52,059 nt of DNA from Thermobrachium celere DSM 8682 (GTDB lineage Bacteria; Bacillota; Clostridia; Clostridiales; Caloramatoraceae): NCBI RefSeq assembly GCF_000430995.1, contig NZ_HF952018.1, forward strand, positions 1,843,062 through 1,895,120, read 5' to 3'. Both the position numbers and the translations under genes were made by a program. Each line of letters opens with the position of its first letter. The first letter of the stretch is position 1. The notes under the pieces are model-generated. The model saw nothing but the letters and a program-made list of their open reading frames with translations. It had not been told where the DNA came from and did no database searches. Shown here in pieces: positions 3,290 to 12,931 of this stretch.

Positions 3290-4171
3290 TTACATTGTAA
3301 CATCTTTATTTTGATATTTCTTAGCTGTTCTAAACATTGTAATTGAAGTGTATGTTATAACAACTATAACAAGCCATTTTAACCAGTATAGTGGTAATTC
3401 CTTTACTATATATGCTGCAATTAGAACACCTATTGAACCAAATATAGTTATAGCAATTGATGCTTTTCTATCATAAGCACCTTCCTTTATGAATTTAATT
3501 GATGCAGCAGGCATTAAGAAGGCACATGAACCCATCATAATTGGGAAAGCTACCTTTGGGCTCATTCCTAACGCATATACAAGAGCCATACATGGTGCAT
3601 AAAGACCTATACCTATTGTCATAAGTGCACCTAATATGAAGTTTGCTACAACTGCTAAGATTAATTTTCCACCTGTTAAGCCAATTGCATCTCCACCTAC
3701 TGGGAAAAGCTTTAATTGTCCTGCAAGCATAACCAATGCTACAACTGCAAGTGCAATTCCCATACCTAGTGAAACCTTCTTAGCATCAAGCTTTGAAACA
3801 ATTCCTGCTCCTATAACTGCACCTATTGATGCTGCAGCAAGCATTGAAATTAAAGTAACTGGTTCAACTTCAATTACTCTTATAAATATTAATGCCTCAA
3901 GAATAACTGGTATTGTCATTGAAACATTTAATGTTCCTGGGATTGTTCTGTCTTCTGTTAAGTTAAAGAATTTAAATAATGCAGTAGTTGGTGCAAAGCT
4001 TCCTATTCCTAATGTGTCAAAGAAGTTTGTTACAAAACCTACTCCACTTAGAGCCCAAAAGTTACCCTTTTCTAGTTCCCCTTCCTTCATCTTCTTTCTT
4101 ACGTCAACTACAAAGAAGTAAGTAAAAATGACTGCCAATACGACCAATAAACCCAACACTAGATTAACCAT
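3290..4171 (-). CDS. TSUP (TauE/SafE) family membrane permease
   Basis: A polytopic membrane protein of 293 aa with about eight hydrophobic segments in two halves, each with the family's glycine-rich pattern (GVGFVTNFFDTLGIGSFAPTT near residues 43-63 and GALMTIGIGLYAPCMAL in the second half). TSUP proteins export or import small anions such as sulfite, sulfoacetate or other organic acids. The gene starts 97 bp after the prdF stop, on the same strand, with a GGGG-type ribosome binding site. It may be the last gene of the prd transcription unit; no strong terminator is visible between them. The substrate is unknown. Export of a Stickland product would fit the context but is not shown. Confidence 0.85.
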   Translation of the reverse strand: MVNLVLGLLVVLAVIFTYFFVVDVRKKMKEGELEKGNFWALSGVGFVTNFFDTLGIGSFAPTTALFKFFNLTEDRTIPGTLNVSMTIPVILEALIFIRVIEVEPVTLISMLAAASIGAVIGAGIVSKLDAKKVSLGMGIALAVVALVMLAGQLKLFPVGGDAIGLTGGKLILAVVANFILGALMTIGIGLYAPCMALVYALGMSPKVAFPIMMGSCAFLMPAASIKFIKEGAYDRKASIAITIFGSIGVLIAAYIVKELPLYWLKWLVIVVITYTSITMFRTAKKYQNKDVTM

Positions 4172-4268: not shown

Positions 4269-5276
4269 TTACTTAAGAATAAAACCATACTTTACAGGAT
4301 CTTCAGGATCTATAACAAAGTGATTGAACCCTGTTATATACGCACTACCTGTAATCTCTGGAATTACTGCATTAAAGTCCCCCACCTTTGTTTCACCTAT
4401 TACCCTAGCTTTGAACATTGTTCCTAAAATGCTTTCATATACAAACTCTTCATTCATTTTTAACTTTCCTTTTGCATATAAAGTGGCAATCTTTGCACTT
4501 GTACCTGTACCGCATGGAGATCTATCAACCTGACCTTGTCCAAAAACTACAACATTCTTTAGTGTAGCTTCCTCCTTTGTAGGTGGTCCATAAATCTCTA
4601 CAAGATCAACAGTTTTGATATGTGATAGTGTTGGATGTTGTATCTCTACTGACTCATTAACAGCCTTTCTAATCTTTAGTGCAACATCAACTAATTTTTG
4701 AACATTATTAGGGGAAATCTGTATTCCTAATTGAGTTGAATCAACTAGTGCAAAGAAACTTCCTCCAAATGCAATATCAAGGGTAACTTTACCTAATCCT
4801 TCAACCTCAACTTCAACATCAGACTTGTATAGGAAGGATGGAACATTTACAATTGAAACCTCTTTAGCCTTTCCATTCTCAACTTTAACTCTTGCCTTTA
4901 CAAGACCTGCTGGTGCTTCAAGAACTATTTCTGTATATGGCTCCTTAACTTCAACCATACCAGTTTCTACTGCAACAGTAGCTGCACCAATTGAACCATG
5001 ACCGCACATATTTAAATATCCGCCGCCGTCCATAAATATTATTCCTAAATCCGCTTCTTTGTTTGTTGGTTCAGTTATTATTGAACCAAACATATCATTG
5101 TGTCCTCTTGGTTCAAGCATAACAGCTGTTCTTATATGATCCATGTGTTCTTCTAGATACTTTTTCTTCTCTGGCATTGTATTTCCTGGTATCTTAGGTA
5201 TTCCACCTACAATAATTCTTGTCGGTTCTCCCATTGTGTGTGAATCTACTGCATAGATTGATTTGATAGACTTCAT
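4269..5276 (-). CDS. prdF: Proline racemase PrdF
   Basis: Interconverts L- and D-proline, giving the D-isomer that proline reductase uses. The two catalytic cysteines of the PLP-independent racemase fold are both present: Cys91 in the MCGHGSIGA motif and Cys255 in the DRSPCGTGTSA motif. The 335-aa length matches proline racemases. 4-Hydroxyproline 2-epimerases share this fold, but position at the end of a prd operon, 2 bp after prdE, makes proline racemase the best call. It is probably translated with prdE and driven by the sigma-54 promoter upstream of prdC. Confidence 0.95.
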   Translation of the reverse strand: MKSIKSIYAVDSHTMGEPTRIIVGGIPKIPGNTMPEKKKYLEEHMDHIRTAVMLEPRGHNDMFGSIITEPTNKEADLGIIFMDGGGYLNMCGHGSIGAATVAVETGMVEVKEPYTEIVLEAPAGLVKARVKVENGKAKEVSIVNVPSFLYKSDVEVEVEGLGKVTLDIAFGGSFFALVDSTQLGIQISPNNVQKLVDVALKIRKAVNESVEIQHPTLSHIKTVDLVEIYGPPTKEEATLKNVVVFGQGQVDRSPCGTGTSAKIATLYAKGKLKMNEEFVYESILGTMFKARVIGETKVGDFNAVIPEITGSAYITGFNHFVIDPEDPVKYGFILK

Positions 5277-5278
5277 AT

Positions 5279-5746
5279 CTACCTCTCTCCTTTCATTTTT
5301 AGTTTCAATAAAGCTAGCGCCTTTTTAGCATCTATTTCAGTCACATTGTTTTCGCCTACAACTTCTGTTTCAATTCCTTCTTTAGATTTGTTAAAGTCAA
5401 CTATTGTATCCATATATTTGTTTTTTACAACAAATTGAGCTTGAGTTCCTATAAAACTCAATCCTACAACTGGTATACCTCTTTTACCTATTTCCTCTAT
5501 TGTATTTGCATAATCTACATGACTATTTCCCCATCCGTCAACTGATATAATTACACCATCTACTCTCATTGCTTCACACCATCTTGCTGCCATCTTACCT
5601 ACAAAGTATTTATCTTCGTTCTCCTGTGGTGTACCTACTATCATAATTCCTACTAAGTCAATATCCTTATCATCTGAAACTACTTTAAGCAATGGATCTC
5701 TAAAATGATGTAATGTAGTTTCCTTTGTTGATGGACCAACACCCAT
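5279..5746 (-). CDS. prdE: Proline reductase-associated protein PrdE (matches PrdA C-terminal part)
   Basis: A 155-aa soluble protein that aligns along its whole length with residues 493-646 of PrdA in this window (for example GPSTKE against GPASKE, VDGVIISVDGWGNSHVDYA against VDGAIVTTEGFGNNHIDFA, RGIPVVGLSF against RGVPVVGMSF). Its first residues fall exactly at the PrdA self-cleavage junction, and the cleavage cysteine is replaced (Gly2), so it cannot form a pyruvoyl group. It starts 11 bp after prdD. The role in proline reduction is not established; a structural or assembly partner of PrdD is a reasonable inference. Confidence 0.92.
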   Translation of the reverse strand: MGVGPSTKETTLHHFRDPLLKVVSDDKDIDLVGIMIVGTPQENEDKYFVGKMAARWCEAMRVDGVIISVDGWGNSHVDYANTIEEIGKRGIPVVGLSFIGTQAQFVVKNKYMDTIVDFNKSKEGIETEVVGENNVTEIDAKKALALLKLKMKGER

Positions 5747-5757
5747 ATCATCACCAC

Positions 5758-6522
5758 CTAATGCATTGCTCTTAATGCACCATCTCTAAATTCGTTTGGA
5801 GTTAATATTATTGGAACGTTTCCTATATCAATAACTGAACGCCCACCTTCAAATCCTGCTGGTTCATTAGGTAAAAACAGCGTGTCATACATAGCTCCTT
5901 GTCCTGCAACCTGTTTTATAATTACAACTCTCTTTTTTCCTACTTGAACTTTATCTACATATTCGTGTTTTTCATCGCAGTCTTTACCATTTAACTTCTT
6001 TAAACTCTTTCTTACTTCCTGTATTACTAAATCAAACAACTTATGTGCTTCTGTTGGACCCTTTCTTATAGTACCAAGTCCCTTTTTCAAAGTAACATCT
6101 AAATGAATTATTATATCCTCATCTGATGGTGTTCCAGCTCTGTTAAATACCACTTGTTCACTTAGTATACCTTCAGATGAACCAAACTCTGCCACTTGAA
6201 CACCTTCTTCATCTACTGCTGTAAGCATACAACATACCCCTGTTAAAACATGGGTAATCCCTTCTCCTAAATTACCAAGTACTTTAGTTGCAATTGGGCT
6301 AAAATCTAGAATAGAATTGACAAAAATATTTCTTTTATCTTTTTCAATTATTGATAGTCTTGCATCTTTTATAATTTCTCTATCTACATTTAAACTTTGT
6401 AGTAGATTTTCATCTAAGAAAAGAGTTTTCGACTTTAAATCAATAAAAGTTTTCGTTGAAAATTTAACATTTATGATATGAAAAGCCTTAATAACTAATC
6501 TTCTTAATTCCCTCTCTTCCAT
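5758..6522 (-). CDS. prdD: Proline reductase-associated protein PrdD (matches PrdA N-terminal catalytic part)
   Basis: A 254-aa protein aligning with about residues 245-492 of PrdA here (EERELRRLVIKAFHI against EEKVIRKLIRKHYKI, EFGSSEGILSEQVVFNRAGTPSDE against EFGSSEGILEENIMWNRPGAPDKG, GQGAMYDTLFLP against GQGAMHDNIILP, IDIGNVPIILTPNEFRDGALRAMH against VDLGNVPVVLSPLEVLDGGIHALT). It stops at the residue just before the PrdA cleavage cysteine. It lacks the two N-terminal repeats of PrdA. A strong hairpin without a U tract separates it from prdB. Function is unproven; it pairs naturally with PrdE. Confidence 0.92.
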   Translation of the reverse strand: MEERELRRLVIKAFHIINVKFSTKTFIDLKSKTLFLDENLLQSLNVDREIIKDARLSIIEKDKRNIFVNSILDFSPIATKVLGNLGEGITHVLTGVCCMLTAVDEEGVQVAEFGSSEGILSEQVVFNRAGTPSDEDIIIHLDVTLKKGLGTIRKGPTEAHKLFDLVIQEVRKSLKKLNGKDCDEKHEYVDKVQVGKKRVVIIKQVAGQGAMYDTLFLPNEPAGFEGGRSVIDIGNVPIILTPNEFRDGALRAMH

Positions 6523-6574: not shown

Positions 6575-7300
6575 TCATACCTTTGCTATATATTCATATG
6601 GAAGTGGAACTATTGTTCCAGGAGTTTGAATTTCAACTAATTGAATTAATGCATCTTTTAATATATTTCTTTGCATTTCTGGATCGTTTGGACGACCTGC
6701 GTTTGCACCCATTGGAACACGTGGAGCAACTGCTCTTGGAGTTCCGTTTTGCTTAACTACTGGTGGTAAAGCTGCTATTATTATAGTCGGTATACCTACC
6801 GACTCAATCGCTCTCTGTACAATTACAGCAGAGCGGTGGCAGGTACCTCAGCCAGCAGTTAGAACAACAGCGTCAACTCCTTCTTCCTTTAGGATTTTAG
6901 CAATTTGTGGTCCAGTTTCATTTTTGAATTTATCTTGGTTTCCACCTCCACCCATGAATCCTATATGAGTTTCAGCAACTTCCTTAATAAATCCTTCTGC
7001 CTTTAATTCTCTTAGTCTATCAATTGGGAACATACAGTTGATATCCTTATTTACATCCCCATTATCATATCCACCATGTGATACCATAAGGTCGTGTGAA
7101 TCGCAATCACCTGGTATAATTCTAAATGTAAAGTCACCTGCTAAATTAAATCTCTTATCTGACTTTAAGTGTACTCCTGCTGCTGTAGCTAAAGCTACCT
7201 TCATTTCCTTTAGTGGCTTTGTAACTTCAGCCCAAACAGGTGGAGGAGTTATTGGTACGTATATTTCTGATTGTAACCCCTTAACAACTGTTAAGCTCAT
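6575..7300 (-). CDS. prdB: D-proline reductase selenoprotein subunit PrdB
   Basis: Catalytic selenoprotein subunit that, with PrdA, reduces D-proline to 5-aminovalerate. The frame contains one in-frame TGA at 6850-6848 (codon 151), after which the same frame continues for 90 codons to a TGA stop at 6577-6575, giving 241 aa. The context TAG-Sec-GTC gives a UxxC redox motif like that of GrdB/PrdB, and the protein reads through as a GrdB-type family member (MGGGGNQDKFKNETGP before the Sec). Automated callers would truncate it at 6848. Its ATG overlaps the stop of the preceding 82-codon gene (ATGA), so the two are translationally coupled. A hairpin suited to a bacterial SECIS follows the UGA. Confidence 0.95.
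6809..6835 (-). promoter_or_regulatory. SECIS-like hairpin of prdB
   Basis: Twelve nt after the UGA codon the mRNA can form CGCTCT/AGAGCG, a bulged G, then CTGTA/TACAG closed by the loop ATTG. The apical loop starts 24 nt after the UGA, inside the window used by bacterial SECIS elements. The loop carries a G at its 3' end rather than in the usual first positions, so the exact SelB contact is uncertain. Confidence 0.7.
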
Positions 7301-7545
7301 TCTTCTTTCCCTTCCTTTCTTTCTATATTTTTAACATATTTTAAGTTGGGTTCTGGTGATATAACCTCTAAGAAGCTCATTTTAAAACCTACTTCCTGAC
7401 CAACCTTTAATGGATAGTCAGTAATTAACATCCTCATAGGTACCTTCATATATCCTAGTCTTCCCTTTAAATCTATGGTTACAGCACCATCTTCTATTTT
7501 TGTTATTATGCCATACATTTCAATAATTCTGTCAGCATATTTCAT
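7297..7545 (-). CDS. Small conserved protein between prdA and prdB (CBO2463/CBO2479-domain type)
   Basis: An 82-aa protein, largely predicted beta strand (YGIITKIEDGAVTIDLKGRLGYMKVPMRMLI), resembling a small beta-barrel. I believe this is the small domain named after C. botulinum proteins CBO2463/CBO2479 that recurs in prd clusters; that is from memory and unchecked. It starts 10 bp after prdA and its TGA stop overlaps the prdB ATG, so it is expressed with both subunits. No catalytic residues or cysteines are visible. A role in PrdA/PrdB assembly or selenium handling is possible, but nothing in the sequence shows it. Confidence 0.85.
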   Translation of the reverse strand: MKYADRIIEMYGIITKIEDGAVTIDLKGRLGYMKVPMRMLITDYPLKVGQEVGFKMSFLEVISPEPNLKYVKNIERKEGKEE

Positions 7546-7555
7546 CGTTTACACC

Positions 7556-9649
7556 TTACTTTGTTGAATATTTTTCAAGCCTCTTTTGGCTCATAGGAAT
7601 TGATGTTTCATTTTCTACTCTTTCTATCTTAGTGTTATATGCCTTTTCTATTAATTCTAAGTTGTTTTCCTTTACATTTGGATTCCATTGTCTTTCTGGT
7701 GCCTTAACCTCTTCACCAGCCATAACTGTCTTTAGCATAGCAAGTGCTCTTACAGCATCTTCTTTACATAATGTGTTGCATGCTAAAACTTCATTTTCAA
7801 TACCTTGTTCAGACTTATTTAGGTCTACCATGTACTTCATGTATTCATTACCAACAACTAGTGCTCCTTGAACTGCACAGAAGGACATACCAACTACTGG
7901 AACACCCCTCATACCAATTTGCTCTATGTGGCTTGCAAAGTCAATGTGGTTGTTTCCAAATCCTTCTGTTGTTACAATTGCACCATCAACATCCATAGTT
8001 TCAATTAGCATTCCAAGTCTTTCTGATACATAGAACTTTTCACTGTTTATTTGTGGGCTTCCTACAAATACAACACCACAAAGATCTATTTCTGGATCAT
8101 TCATAGCTTCAATTACAAGTGGTTCTCTGAAATAGTGTCTTGAACATTCCTTTGATGCAGGTCCTATACATGTTAATGCATGAATTCCACCATCTAATAC
8201 TTCAAGTGGTGAAAGCACAACAGGAACATTTCCTAGGTCAACATTTGGCTTACCACCTAATACTCCAACTGGTTCAACAGGAAGAATTATATTATCATGC
8301 ATTGCTCCTTGACCCATTATTTCCTTAACAATTACTACCTTCTTCTTGCCAGGTCTTCTCTTTTGAACTAGTTCTTCTGTTTCAACAACTAGACTATCAT
8401 CAAGTTTCTTTAATGCATCTCTTATTTCTTGAGTTATATAGTCAGTTGCCTTATGAGCTGCAAGAGGACCTACTCTTTCCATATTAGTTCCTTCTGCAAT
8501 TACTACCTGTGTCTTTATAAATATTTCACCTTTATCTGGAGCACCTGGTCTATTCCACATGATATTTTCTTCTAGTATACCTTCTGAAGAACCAAACTCT
8601 CCTATTTGAACACCCTTTTCATCTGTACCTGTTACCATTACTATAACACCATCTAATACTCTTGTTACTCCAGTACCTAACTTGCAATCCTTTTCCTTTG
8701 TTGCAATTGGTTGAACGTCCATTATTGTTTCACTGTAAGTATTGTATTTATCTGGAGTGATTATATCTATTTTAATATCCTTTACTAGATGGTCTACCTT
8801 TAGGGCATCCTTACATATGTCTTCTCTTATATACAATACAGTTCCTTCAATCTTTGTCTCTGGTCCAAACTTTACTTCTGTTATCTTATAATGCTTTCTT
8901 ATAAGTTTTCTTATTACTTTTTCTTCAACCTTTTCTTCTTTCTTAACTTCAACTTCCTTCTTTTCTACTGCTTCAGTCTTTAATGCAACAGCTTCATTCT
9001 TCTTTTGAACAGCTGGAACAGCTTGTGGTGCAAATAAAGGAATTTCTATATCTATTCCCTTTCCTTCTGCTATTTTAATCTTTAATGTACCTGTTGATTG
9101 TGGTACAATTCCTGAAACTTGTTGAACGTCTTCAACAACTGGTTTTACATATCCTTCAATCATTTCTGCTTTAATTGGAGTTAAAGCAGGTACATCCATA
9201 GTTAACTTCTTACCTAAAACATCTCCCACAGTTAACACCTCATCAGTTAACTTTATAAGTAATGAATCTTCAAGTTTCTCAAAATTAATTGGGTTTTCTA
9301 AATCCTTTTCAGTTATTACTTCATTAGCCTTCTTGTTTACCTTTAAAACTGCCTTTGCATTTAAATCTACTTTTACTTCATTCTTTTGAGAAGCAGTCTT
9401 AACTCCCTCTAGTAGATCTGGAGTTAATGGAGTTAGAGCATCTATTGTTTTTAAAAGCTTTGCACCTAATACTTCTCCTACTTTTAAGCAATCTGCAGGT
9501 ATTGTTAATAGTCCTGAATCAATTAAATCAGGAAAAATTTCTGGATCCTCTAAATTATCTGCAGAAATTATTGTTCCTTCTTCTGTTCTGCAGCATACAA
9601 TCGCAGGCTCATTTAGTAACTTCTGAGCTTTTTCTGCACTCATTGACAT
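7556..9649 (-). CDS. prdA: D-proline reductase proprotein PrdA
   Basis: Precursor of the two non-selenium subunits of D-proline reductase. The 697-aa chain contains two related repeats of about 70 aa (residues 1-75 and 98-170; compare ENLEDP/NLEDPEIFPDL with DLENPINFEKL, and VGEVLGAKL with VGDVLGKKL), a Lys/Glu-rich linker at 215-248, the PrdD-like domain at about 245-492 and the PrdE-like domain after it. Autocleavage before Cys494 (HALTCIGPASK) would give a 493-residue fragment and a 204-residue fragment bearing an N-terminal pyruvoyl group, as established for the Clostridium sticklandii enzyme. D-Proline would bind the pyruvoyl carbonyl and be attacked by PrdB selenocysteine. It lies 17 bp after prdC. 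Confidence 0.96.
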   Translation of the reverse strand: MSMSAEKAQKLLNEPAIVCCRTEEGTIISADNLEDPEIFPDLIDSGLLTIPADCLKVGEVLGAKLLKTIDALTPLTPDLLEGVKTASQKNEVKVDLNAKAVLKVNKKANEVITEKDLENPINFEKLEDSLLIKLTDEVLTVGDVLGKKLTMDVPALTPIKAEMIEGYVKPVVEDVQQVSGIVPQSTGTLKIKIAEGKGIDIEIPLFAPQAVPAVQKKNEAVALKTEAVEKKEVEVKKEEKVEEKVIRKLIRKHYKITEVKFGPETKIEGTVLYIREDICKDALKVDHLVKDIKIDIITPDKYNTYSETIMDVQPIATKEKDCKLGTGVTRVLDGVIVMVTGTDEKGVQIGEFGSSEGILEENIMWNRPGAPDKGEIFIKTQVVIAEGTNMERVGPLAAHKATDYITQEIRDALKKLDDSLVVETEELVQKRRPGKKKVVIVKEIMGQGAMHDNIILPVEPVGVLGGKPNVDLGNVPVVLSPLEVLDGGIHALTCIGPASKECSRHYFREPLVIEAMNDPEIDLCGVVFVGSPQINSEKFYVSERLGMLIETMDVDGAIVTTEGFGNNHIDFASHIEQIGMRGVPVVGMSFCAVQGALVVGNEYMKYMVDLNKSEQGIENEVLACNTLCKEDAVRALAMLKTVMAGEEVKAPERQWNPNVKENNLELIEKAYNTKIERVENETSIPMSQKRLEKYSTK

Positions 9650-9666: not shown

Positions 9667-10971
9667 TTATTTTTTATCTATTGGAAGCCTTCTTGGTATA
9701 GGCATATCCATCGTTCTTAATGCATGGTCAACATGGTGATAAACTGGAATATTTAACTTTGGAGCACATCCCATAACTGTATTTGTACAGTCATTGCAGT
9801 TAGCAACAAGTATTCTCTCTGCTCCCTGCTTTTTCAAATACATAACAGCCTGTGCCTGTCCTGGGCAATCTCCAGGGGTTAAACATTTATTTGTGCCTCT
9901 AACTTCAACTACATTTTTACATTTAGTAACACCAACAACTTCAGATTTCATCTTACTTGCAATATCTCTAAGTCTTGCTTCATCTGCTCCGCAGGCACAA
10001 ACTAAAAGTCCTATTTTTCCTTTAAATTCTGGAAGTGGAATTGTTACAATTGCTCCTCCTGATGTCTTTGTTACAAATGCATCCTTTAACTCCTCTGCTT
10101 TTCCTGTATATGGACCACCTATGATTATTTCTCCATATTCTCCATCTATTCCACCACATTTTTCAATTAAACTATTAATTGAAGTACCAATAGGAACTCT
10201 TAACATAACATGTGGTCCAAGTCCATTAACCAATTTTCCAGCTACAGTTACATCCTTGTCTATAACTGGTTTTCTATCCTCTACTGCTTCAGTCAAGTTG
10301 TAAAGTGTTTCTGTATTTAATACAACACAATTTGCATCTAATGGTAATTGTGTTGGTTCAAGCCATCTGCCAAAAATCTCATGAATTATTGCTCTTTCTT
10401 CTCCCATTGGATACATATCTGGAAGCATCTTTATTTCAATATTATCACTATCCTTAATTACCTCTTTTAATCTTTGGATAGCTCTTTCATTTTTTCCTTT
10501 TATAGCTATATAACCCTTAGATGCTCCAGTTGATTGCATAGCATATTTTATTCCTCTAACTATCTTTTCTGGATGCTTTTCTATAAGGCTTATATTATGA
10601 TGAAGAATAGGCTCACATTCAACACAGTTTGCAATAACATATCCACCATTTAATTTGCTTTGAAGCTTAACATAGGTTGGAAAACCTGCTCCTCCAGCAC
10701 CAACTATTCCTGCTTCATAGGCATATTCCCATATGCTATCACACTCTTTAATCTTTACATAATCATCTGTTTGTACTTTTGAAGCTTCTATTTCTATATA
10801 CTTTTCATTTACAACAACTACTTTTCCATCTACACTTGAATGTATTTTTGCACCTAATCCCTCTGGTTCTGCAATTAGTTGTCCTCTTTTTACCTCGTCC
10901 CCAGCTTTAACCATTGGTTTACAAGGTGCACCTGCATGCATTTTTAGATATATTCTAAAAATATCCCCCAT
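9667..10971 (-). CDS. prdC: Proline reductase electron-transfer protein PrdC (RnfC-like)
   Basis: A 434-aa RnfC/NQR-alpha-type protein expected to pass electrons from NADH-linked carriers to proline reductase. Residues 1-60 form a lipoyl/barrel-sandwich-like region (CKPMVKAGDEVKRGQLIAEPEG). The GAGGAGFPTYVK motif at 91-102 is the conserved RnfC nucleotide- or flavin-binding segment. The C-terminal third is cysteine-rich (Cys325, 327, 351, 363, 369, 392, 395, 402). Some clostridial PrdC proteins are reported as selenoproteins; here the frame has no internal TGA, so this one is an all-cysteine form. It is the first gene of the sigma-54-driven unit, with an AGGTG ribosome binding site. Confidence 0.93.
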   Translation of the reverse strand: MGDIFRIYLKMHAGAPCKPMVKAGDEVKRGQLIAEPEGLGAKIHSSVDGKVVVVNEKYIEIEASKVQTDDYVKIKECDSIWEYAYEAGIVGAGGAGFPTYVKLQSKLNGGYVIANCVECEPILHHNISLIEKHPEKIVRGIKYAMQSTGASKGYIAIKGKNERAIQRLKEVIKDSDNIEIKMLPDMYPMGEERAIIHEIFGRWLEPTQLPLDANCVVLNTETLYNLTEAVEDRKPVIDKDVTVAGKLVNGLGPHVMLRVPIGTSINSLIEKCGGIDGEYGEIIIGGPYTGKAEELKDAFVTKTSGGAIVTIPLPEFKGKIGLLVCACGADEARLRDIASKMKSEVVGVTKCKNVVEVRGTNKCLTPGDCPGQAQAVMYLKKQGAERILVANCNDCTNTVMGCAPKLNIPVYHHVDHALRTMDMPIPRRLPIDKK

Positions 10972-11191: not shown

Positions 11192-12931
11192 TCATAGACC
11201 ATATTGTTCTATTTTGTAATATAATGTACTTCTTTTTATTTTTAATAACTCTGCTGCCTTCTTTTTATTGCCGTTCGAAAGTTCAAGAGCCCTCCTTATA
11301 GTATCCCTCTCCACCTTTTCTATCATCTTTTGTAAATCAAACTCATCAATTATCAGTTCATCCTTAACGGATTCACGTATATATTCAGGAACTAAATCCG
11401 TTGTTATCCTTCCATTTTGGGATAGTACCACCATTCTTTGTACAACATTTTTTAATTCCCTAACATTCCCTTCCCAAATATAATTTTCAAAAATATCATA
11501 AACCTTTTCATCTATGTATTCTATGTCCTTATTTTCTTCCTTTGCATACATGTCAAAAAATAAATTACTAAGTTCTCTTATATCCTCTTTACGTTCTCTT
11601 AGTGGTGGCAGATATATGTTAACTACTGATAGCCTATAGTATAGGTCATCTCTAAATAACCCTTTTTTAATCATTTCATTTAGATTTTTATTTGTTGCTG
11701 CAATAACCCTTGCGTTTATTTTTATAGGCTTTTCATCCCCTAATCTATATACAACTCCATCCTGAAGAACCCTTAAAAGCTTTGCCTGCATATTAAGTGG
11801 CATATCTCCTATTTCATCTAAAAATATTGTACCATTATTAGCAAATTCAAATTTACCTATCTTACCCTTTTTTAAGGCTCCTGTAAATGCACCTTCTACA
11901 TAACCAAACAATTCACTTTCAAGTAGGTTCTCTGGTATAGCACTGCAGTTTATTGCAACAAAATTTCCTTCTCTTCCACTTGCTTGATGGATAGCTTTTG
12001 CAAATACCTCTTTTCCTGTTCCACTCTCTCCCATTATTAAAACGCTAGCATTTGAACTTGCTACTCTTCTTGCTATTGATATCGCATCGAGTATTTTTTT
12101 ACTTTTTCCATAAATACTTGAAAAACTAAACTTTTCTGCTATCTCTTTGTTGTATTGGCTCTTTAGAAACTCAACCTTCTTCTTTTCATTTTCAAGTTGA
12201 ACAGATAGATTTACAACTTCAGTAACGTCTCTATCTGTTGAAACAGCAGCAATTACTTCATTATTTGTATTATATATAGGAACTACACTTAAAATGACAG
12301 TCTTGTCCTTTGTGGGCTTATGATAGACATTTTCTATTTTTTCTCCCTTTAGGGCCTTTAAAATTAAAGCATCTGGGAATATTTCGGAAATATTTTTACC
12401 TAATATTTCAGCAGCACTTATATTATATAGCTTTTCAGCACTTTTATTCCAATAAATAACAACACCCTTTTTATTTATAATACACACTGCTTCATGTAGA
12501 TTTTCTAATATATTTTTCTGAAAACCAAATAGCTCATCTATCCTTAAATAAAACTTATCGCGTATATTGGTTGCTGTTAATATCCCAATAACTTTATTAC
12601 CTTCAATTACTGGTAGGCGTCCTATATTTAACCTCAGCATTAAATTTCTTGCATCTCTTACATTGTCATCTGGGGATATTGTAATTACATTTTTTTGCAT
12701 AAACTCATATATCTTTTTGTTCCTTATCCTGTCTAGATTATCTTGAGTAGGTATATCCATTTTTGTAAAAATTCCTATTAAATCTTTTCTATCATCTACT
12801 ATTAAAACTTCTTCTCTTCTGTTTTTGAACATTATATCAATTGTTTCTGCTAATGTTGTATCTTTGTGTAACAATACAACATTAGTATCCATTATATCCC
12901 TTACCTTATAAATTAAATCTATGAACCACAT
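11192..12931 (-). CDS. prdR: PrdR, sigma-54-dependent activator of proline reductase genes
   Basis: An enhancer-binding activator of 579 aa. Two CBS domains occupy about residues 8-125, a PAS domain about 135-240, and a coiled region links to an AAA+ domain (about 270-505). The Walker A motif (GESGTGKE, 301-308), the sigma-54 contact loop GAFTGA (347-352) and Walker B (FLDEIGD, 370-376) are all intact. A Fis-type helix-turn-helix closes the protein (545-579, [18 protein letters not shown]). In C. difficile PrdR activates prd genes in response to proline; the same circuit is supported here by the sigma-54 site upstream of prdC. The CBS pair suggests a nucleotide-type ligand input. The start at 12931 is preceded by a weak GGGG-TTGG site; an ATG 13 codons in is an alternative. 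Confidence 0.95.

Follow-up and report, generated by a model that had tools for sequence, protein, structure and literature searches.

D-proline reductase serves amino-acid fermentation in many anaerobes. The enzyme purified from Clostridium sticklandii is described as having three subunits, of 23, 26 and 45 kDa, and the pyruvoyl group of its PrdA is said to have been described by Kabisch in 1999 and by Bednarski in 2001. According to the accessible parts of two further reports, the Cys-derived N-terminal pyruvoyl group of C. difficile PrdA has been characterised by mass spectrometry (PMC9908766), and the size of PrdB is 26 kDa (PMC13188914). Here, we examine prdD and prdE, two genes in the prd cluster of Thermobrachium celere DSM 8682, in a stretch of 52,059 nucleotides (nt) that we call the window (GCF_000430995.1, NZ_HF952018.1, positions 1,843,062-1,895,120). 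Sequence comparison supports the view that their products, together PrdD/E, are a paralogue of PrdA divided on the bond at which PrdA is cleaved, with Gly replacing the Cys that forms the pyruvoyl group.

The closest described protein is PrdA (TIGR04480), with which PrdD/E is homologous over PrdA residues 241-646 and shares a predicted order of core elements and an operon. They differ in that PrdA has SAF-like N-terminal repeats, a C-terminal extension, the Cys and self-cleavage, whereas PrdD/E has Gly and occurs either as a pair of chains or as one permuted chain. GrdE and GrdG from component B of the glycine, sarcosine and betaine reductases (PF09338) are distant homologues and single chains with Cys, but are catalytic, processed and unsplit; the GrdE products reportedly stabilise GrdB, in work by Grobe in 2007. 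That PrdD and PrdE resemble parts of PrdA was, as an earlier note on this DNA acknowledged, already known, and was published in 2010 by Fonknechten et al. (PMC3091704), who proposed an indirect, protein-stabilising role by analogy with the GrdE products, and reported that the two are absent from a second gene set. The account, in the accessible part of that paper, contains neither a residue-exact boundary, nor Gly for Cys, nor a permuted fusion. A further precedent is the trypanosome AdoMetDC prozyme, a dead paralogue of a pyruvoyl enzyme that forms a heterodimer with AdoMetDC and activates it (PMC5201418). It belongs to another enzyme, is not described as split or permuted in the part of the source available, and its activating role is proven whereas that of PrdD/E is proposed. 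In the open-access literature, so far as its texts were accessible, the residue-exact boundary, the Gly rule and the permuted fusion were not found, 'proline reductase' together with 'circular permut' gave nothing, and no deletion or pull-down of PrdD/E was found, including in PMC6311696, PMC8557875, PMC10564238 and PMC6615313.

Position of the prdD/prdE boundary

Both genes are intact open reading frames (ORFs) on the minus strand: prdD (5758..6522) encodes 254 amino acids (aa) ending in DGALRAMH, and prdE (5279..5746) encodes 155 aa beginning M-GVGPSTKE. When aligned locally with the PrdA of the window, a 697 aa proprotein (prdA, 7556..9649, minus strand), PrdD lay on residues 241-492 with a score of 536 (the maximum in 200 shuffles was 66) and PrdE on residues 495-646 with a score of 392 (maximum of 56 in 200 shuffles). 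Anchoring DGALRAMH on DGGIHALT of PrdA places the last PrdD residue opposite Thr493, and anchoring MGVGPSTKE on TCIGPASKE places Gly2 of PrdE (codon 5741..5743, minus strand) opposite Cys494, the initiator Met being set aside. With motifs anchored on both sides, the boundary is thus the T|C bond, the pyruvoyl-forming scissile bond of PrdA (Thr493 and Cys494 codons, 8168..8173, minus strand), its position here being by alignment and the bond itself from the literature. PrdD would be the larger-subunit (N-terminal) half of a pseudo-PrdA, corresponding to PrdA 241-493, and PrdE the pyruvoyl-subunit (C-terminal) half, corresponding to 494-646. The earlier note had the pair covering PrdA residues from about 245 to 646; the end stands and the start moves to 241 by alignment. 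For one split to fall on one given bond of about 400, we estimate the a priori chance to be about 1 in 400.

Profile searches gave the same division. The PrdD model TIGR04482 matches PrdA 247-493, reaching its last position (246/246), and window PrdD scored 354.7 bits over model positions 1-246/246 against a cut-off of 320, and so belongs to that family. PrdE matches positions 415-566 of TIGR04480, but neither PrdE (194.4 bits) nor PrdD (272.8 bits) reaches the 700-bit cut-off, and they are not members of the active proprotein family. PrdE also passes the gathering score of PF09338 (Gly_reductase; 51.8 bits, gathering score 22.2), and for PrdD there was no Pfam match at an E value of 0.01.

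At the boundary itself (5744..5760, minus strand), the prdD stop codon TAG (5758-5760) is followed by a gap of 11 nt and the ATG of prdE (5744-5746). A Shine-Dalgarno-like AGGTGG (5754..5759, minus strand) overlaps the prdD stop and lies 7 nt before the prdE start. As prdD and prdE are in different reading frames, two translation products are expected.

Conservation of the ends

The TIGR04480 search covered 225 genomes of the order, of which 84 had a match and 38 a PrdA above the cut-off, and 391 of the class, where these figures were 53 and 21. A profile of the fusion described below was run against 398 genomes of the phylum and matched in 19 of them at 1e-20, and 27 named loci were added. 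Regions were read for a chosen subset of the matching clusters. The resulting 221 sequences (220 loci and the window) yielded, after removal of identical C-terminal stretches, 66 PrdD, 68 PrdE, 29 E-D fusions and 108 PrdA. Rows were admitted if, for PrdD, they reached query residue 245 or beyond and, for PrdE, their alignment began no later than query residue 8; the figures that follow thus leave out truncated copies but would include longer tails.

The distance from the DG motif to the C-terminus was eight residues in all 66 PrdD and all 29 fusions (95/95), the same as to Thr493 in PrdA. Residue 2 was Gly in every PrdE (68/68), and every PrdA had Cys at the site (108/108). The boundary claimed in the earlier note is therefore borne out to the residue in every distinct cluster member read, as is the replacement of Cys by Gly, and none of the 68 PrdE had a start further upstream that brought in a Cys. 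PrdD/E has, as far as sequence can tell, lost the pyruvoyl-forming residue; the heterodimer and the complete loss of catalysis that the earlier note proposed would go further than this. The PrdD end itself is Thr in 15 of 66 cases, six of them reading DGGIHS[VM]T directly before the stop codon. Tail length was fixed in PrdD (66/66) and variable in PrdE (4-15 residues in the 67 measured), PrdA, PrdC, the racemase and the CBO2463/CBO2479-domain protein. An in-frame ATG, GTG or TTG within the open frame, no more than 17 codons upstream, is available to 19 of the 68 PrdE; the other 49 have none before the previous stop, and there the start before Gly is forced.

The 62 prdD-prdE junctions that could be measured had gaps of 9-110 nt, were distributed over the three frames as 25/14/23, and used TAA (32), TAG (27) or TGA (3) as the prdD stop. 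This variation argues against readthrough. A Shine-Dalgarno-like word precedes prdE in 61 of the 62, found with a permissive pattern that has no chance control.

A fusion in the reverse order

In three genomes (G141, G135 and G144; G and L numbers are our handles for genomes and loci) a PrdE-like part lies upstream of a PrdD-like part in one open frame. The fusion is about 415 aa long (MGLGPSIKMTT...DGVIHSL[LV]) and consists of the E part, a linker and the D part, the linker being 24-31 residues between fixed points (26 measured). Scanning contigs with two short peptides from these genomes found at least 27 loci, both halves being reversed in 27/27, and brought the fusion genomes to 28 (the 27 named loci and G135). 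Hosts include Clostridium drakei, Extibacter, Muricomes, Peptostreptococcus, Gemella, Peptoniphilus, Aedoeadaptatus, Anaerotignum, Lachnoanaerobaculum, Mogibacterium, Anaeroglobus and Anaerococcus, among others. Both halves in one frame and in reversed order, as in a circular permutant, were found in 29 distinct ORFs. Gly stands at the Cys site in 27 of the 29. The fusion at L099 is without its N-terminus, and that at L094 keeps Gly but is without an in-frame start codon, perhaps through an indel.

For the five fusions scanned, scores were 304-373 bits with TIGR04480 (cut-off 700) and 197.7-271.2 bits with TIGR04482 (cut-off 320), and the PrdD of L131 reached 297.2 bits with the latter. For these five and for the L131-type PrdD, no cut-off of an NCBIfam 20.0 model was reached, and the fusions could be mistaken for fragments of PrdD or PrdA.

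Circular permutation by fission and fusion, in which split genes are re-fused in the other order, is a general class, and this case differs in that the ends coincide with the autoproteolytic bond of the parent. From the reversed order of its halves in the sequence and from its predicted fold, the E-D fusion would be a naturally occurring circular permutant of this core, with its termini on the cleavage bond of PrdA.

In Anaerococcus octavius there are two tandem fusion copies, one strongly diverged.

Predicted structure and residue conservation

The fusion was modelled with AlphaFold from an alignment of 28 fusions, 31 PrdD and 35 PrdE that included no PrdA row, and gave a mean predicted local distance difference test (pLDDT) of 91.5 and a predicted template modelling score (pTM) of 0.92, with residues 1-3 under 50. 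The model of window PrdA (from 68 PrdA) had a pLDDT of 85.6 and a pTM of 0.71, and the block 491-500 around the site averaged 62. In these predictions the PrdA core has 18 elements before the site and ten after it, and the fusion has ten then 18, matching type for type, where the count omits the PrdA elements before 241 and two helices after 650 and compares listed helices and strands, not superposed structures. The order 18 + 10 versus 10 + 18 puts the boundary in the loop between the PrdA strand 489-491 and the helix 503-507; a shift away from the cleavage loop, which the earlier note had named as a finding that would count against its claim, was thus not seen in predicted PrdA.

A phmmer search, with PrdA only, found no solved relative by sequence, and Foldseek found no match at an E value of 0.001 or better for the PrdA and fusion models. 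A second look with VIA gave a best Z of 6.7 for the fusion (root mean square deviation, rmsd, 3.4 over 124 residues), a Z of 7-8 for the PrdA SAF-like repeat against type III antifreeze proteins (58-63 residues), and a Z of 8.0 for PrdA 435-694 against microcystinase C (rmsd 5.2 over 196). The VIA matches are no closer than is usual for common arrangements, and their weakness does not point to a new fold.

The part of PrdA ahead of the core (241-646) includes two SAF/antifreeze-like repeats in residues 1-170 (Pfam SAF at 25-81, and a fold match to type III antifreeze at 97-169). A separate ORF of this kind, of 144-169 aa, precedes prdA in five loci (L221-L223, L225 and L226).

Conservation was compared using 42 thinned PrdA rows, 24 split rows and 20 fusion rows, with two G601 rows, the diverged copy at L108 and L099 omitted. 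Of 112 positions conserved at 97 % or more in PrdA, the split forms and the fusion both keep 50 (at least 80 %) and have both lost 22 (20 % or less). Among the lost are Cys494, which is Gly in the rows of both groups, and Glu562, both common to the GrdE type. Tyr506 is replaced by His and Ala498 by Ser in the PrdD/E forms, and, around the site, Gly496, Pro497, Lys500, Asp486 and Gly487 are kept. From the sequences and the predicted models, it looks as though the fold of PrdD/E has been kept and the pyruvoyl chemistry lost.

Phylogeny and order of events

In a careful tree of 51 thinned rows, PrdA is separated from the PrdD/E forms with support of 100/97, and the fusion forms one clade (100/100). 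The PrdD/E of the family coded f124 (one row, L131, ending in Thr) branches outside the other split forms and the fusion (100/99). A single clade of all split forms, as defined by gene architecture, was rejected by the approximately unbiased test (p 0.005), which assumes a group named before the tree is known, the trees here being known already and f124 being reduced to one row by thinning. A quick tree that included the GrdE type (93 rows) was compatible, with PrdA on one side at 91 and the fusion as one clade at 100.

The relatives that we label GrdE type are single chains with Cys (8/8 rows). Their outgroup branch, at 4.86 changes per column, is too long for rooting on them to be safe, and polarity therefore rests on the order of branching and on the state of the GrdE type, an unsplit chain with Cys. 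With a root on the PrdA side, the simplest course of events would be a Cys proprotein, duplication, a split with loss of Cys, and then the reversed fusion. The earlier proposal of a duplication in which separate translation replaced processing agrees with both the PrdA versus PrdD/E branch and the GrdE-type state.

Two PrdA of G601 (L149 and L150), in Sec clusters without PrdD/E, have Cys together with PrdD/E-like residues around the site (RAMT|CIGPASKETTLHYF). Although the trees group them with PrdA, they may be near the condition that preceded the split.

Distribution and genomic context

PrdB occurs in a selenocysteine (Sec) and a Cys form, and could be read in all but four of 67 cluster rows, in which four genome places are counted twice (L038/L084, L042/L085, L056/L156 and L107/L196). 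Twenty-two of the 27 Sec-PrdB rows have a split D+E pair by prdA/prdB, one has D alone with E elsewhere and four have none. The 36 Cys-PrdB rows include no D+E pair; the fusion lies downstream in 20, upstream in four and divergently in two, and ten have none. A lone prdE is found just upstream of a Cys-type prdA in four Cys-PrdB rows, from three Peptoniphilaceae genomes. A strict rule linking the split form to Sec-PrdB and the fusion to Cys-PrdB was considered and is broken both by these lone prdE genes and by three Anaerococcus genomes, in which the fusion occurs with a TGA-containing prdB about 10 kb away.

At L225, L226 and L196 (Peptoniphilus and Aedoeadaptatus), some 12-16 kb separate prdE from prdD, and a second, Cys-type cluster with its own fusion lies between them; selA/selB are also in between at L225 and L226, the two loci read with sel queries. 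Besides prd genes, the Anaerococcus fusion island (L221, 678-9691; L222; L223) carries genes for a double-cubane reductase with its activator and for a cysteine desulfurase, together with selD, yedF and, if the locus extends far enough, selA.

In the order, a PrdD-type half is among the matches listed for at least 28 of the 38 genomes with PrdA. A split-and-fusion profile applied to 12 genomes (the ten with no listed PrdD half, G601 and G795) found no PrdD/E in any of them (12/12), the hits being the PrdA-type proteins' own halves or else weak GrdE-type matches and fragments.

Some PrdD and PrdE genes stand apart from prd clusters. In G110 a solitary PrdD (L155, 8185-8949) lies in a stretch read without PrdE or other prd genes, and in G834 a diverged PrdD-PrdE pair (L153, 6299-7553) without prdA is near trp-like genes. 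In Candidatus Mediterraneibacter (L109 and L110), the fusion gene has no prd neighbour within the locus.

Three loci (L151, L159 and L160, from G601, G647 and G685) have a PrdA core without the N-terminal repeats in an ORF of 553-565 aa with AMT|CV at the site. In all three, the core continues in frame into the beginning of PrdB, followed by one TGA and the final 90 PrdB residues, and these are, from their sequences, apparent natural PrdA-PrdB fusion selenoproteins. Since the stretch equivalent to PrdD plus PrdE stands in them as a unit beside PrdB, PrdB is a candidate partner of PrdD/E.

Other features of the window

All of the remaining prd genes of the window are on the minus strand. prdB (6575..7300) has an in-frame TGA (6848-6850) taken as selenocysteine, and a gene for a CBO2463/CBO2479-domain protein (7297..7545; NF041553) lies between prdA and prdB. 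prdC (9667..10971; TIGR04481) encodes the electron-transfer protein and prdF (4269..5276; PRK13969, above cut-off) the proline racemase. Upstream of the cluster is a prdR-like gene (11192..12931), presumably for an activator, named from its position and domain features. A permease-like gene (3290-4171), which we take to be TauE-like, adjoins the racemase gene and is met again in prd clusters and on the fusion island of Anaerococcus. The idea that this genome has another prd copy was considered and set aside: contig C22 of G000 has PrdA-like and PrdE-like fragments, and the one read, L004, is flanked by stretches of N.

Role of PrdD/E

We envisage that an ancient duplicate of the self-cleaving PrdA proprotein lost the pyruvoyl-forming Cys and that, as sequence and tree together suggest, the gene boundary took over from cleavage at the same bond, so that the two chains would be made already 'processed'. 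Removal of Met is the general rule before an N-terminal Gly, and Ala or Ser would also permit it; here it would expose Gly2 of PrdE at the pyruvoyl position, and the last residue of PrdD would stand at the new C-terminus of mature PrdA. The strictness of the ends suggests that the fold may need free ends at the bond, as in cleaved, mature PrdA. In one lineage the genes would later have been joined the other way round, into a circular permutant with both free ends still on the bond. With no pyruvoyl group, PrdD/E should not bind proline as a Schiff base, and would most likely join PrdA and/or PrdB as a non-catalytic partner that stabilises the reductase or activates it conformationally.

In the evolutionary and structural part of this reading we have high confidence. 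Taken whole, a pseudo-PrdA in the processed conformation that acts as an accessory partner is the best explanation and, in our judgement, a probable one; the partner role considered by itself has about even chances. As in a prozyme, the catalytic residue is lost (by sequence) and the fold is kept (by prediction), and the prozyme is the best working model for PrdD/E. The specific form of a bacterial prozyme, a split, ready-processed pseudo-PrdA in which Gly sterically replaces the pyruvoyl group and which activates or stabilises D-proline reductase with PrdA/PrdB, is put forward tentatively.

Several observations weigh against this interpretation. The three-subunit composition of the purified enzyme leaves no room for stoichiometric PrdD/E. 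Complete clusters with neither PrdD/E nor the fusion occur with both Cys-PrdB and Sec-PrdB, and PrdD/E is thus dispensable for some PrdA/PrdB clusters and is no general requirement. Conversely, PrdD/E or fusion genes occur without prdA nearby (L153, L155, L109 and L110), and no PrdA was found in G984, a Candidatus Mediterraneibacter fusion genome that is metagenome-assembled and possibly incomplete. The first of the two fusion copies at L108 has diverged and is without the Gly. An invariant C-terminus is not unique to PrdD, since the C-terminal part of PrdB (6575-6847 in the window, and homologues) also has a fixed length after a fixed residue in 108/108 distinct sequences, Sec and Cys forms alike. 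Finally, the split genes go back to one or few events and the 66/66 agreement is hence not made up of independent draws, though the permuted fusion, and the maintenance of the ends ever since, add evidence beyond a single split event.

Among other explanations, a maturation factor survives best, with PrdD/E templating or speeding the folding and autocleavage of PrdA and forming no part of the working enzyme. It would fit a predicted fold like that of the processed product, genes adjoining prdA and prdB, and the reported lack of PrdD/E in the purified three-subunit enzyme, and PanZ, which is said to promote the processing of PanD, would be a precedent. We nevertheless consider it unlikely, given that the 12 searched genomes without PrdD/E all have PrdA with an intact Cys and that processing of GrdE and PrdA in vitro is reportedly possible (Bednarski, 2001). 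It is improbable that PrdD/E is instead an alternative active subunit, in which the N-terminal Gly of PrdE, as an amine or a glyoxylyl group, serves another substrate or senses proline. No route from Gly to a carbonyl is known here, the residues lost include Cys494 and Glu562, which are common to the GrdE type, and a hydrazine-probe study names PrdA and GrdE while PrdE is absent from its main text; the use of Gly in 68/68 PrdE, although Ala or Ser would allow removal of Met, and the retention of 50 of the 112 near-invariant positions are the points in its favour.

More doubtful still is an inert relic, a decaying duplicate held by operon linkage whose exact boundary reflects one ancestral event. 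The 66/66 agreement is indeed partly inheritance, and some lineages are without any form of PrdD/E, but the ends are residue-exact over large divergence when most other tails drift, nearly half of the near-invariant PrdA positions are kept, both ends are retained in the permuted fusion, and prdE and prdD persist 12-16 kb apart in Peptoniphilaceae. Readthrough or frameshifting that joins PrdD and PrdE into one chain can be given almost no credence and is rejected for most junctions because frames, gaps and stop codons vary: 25 of the 62 junctions are in the same frame and three have TGA stops, but the other 37 involve a change of frame, the gaps measure 9 to 110 nt, and the two genes can be 12-16 kb apart.

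With PrdD/E read as a pseudo-PrdA in the processed conformation, two 'cluster proteins' become a defined object, a pre-processed pseudo-PrdA. The natural series from self-cleaved chain to split genes to permuted fusion would indicate that gene fission and circular permutation can start from a processing site. If this is true, the bond once cut by autoproteolysis turned into a boundary between genes and, later, into the termini of a permuted protein.

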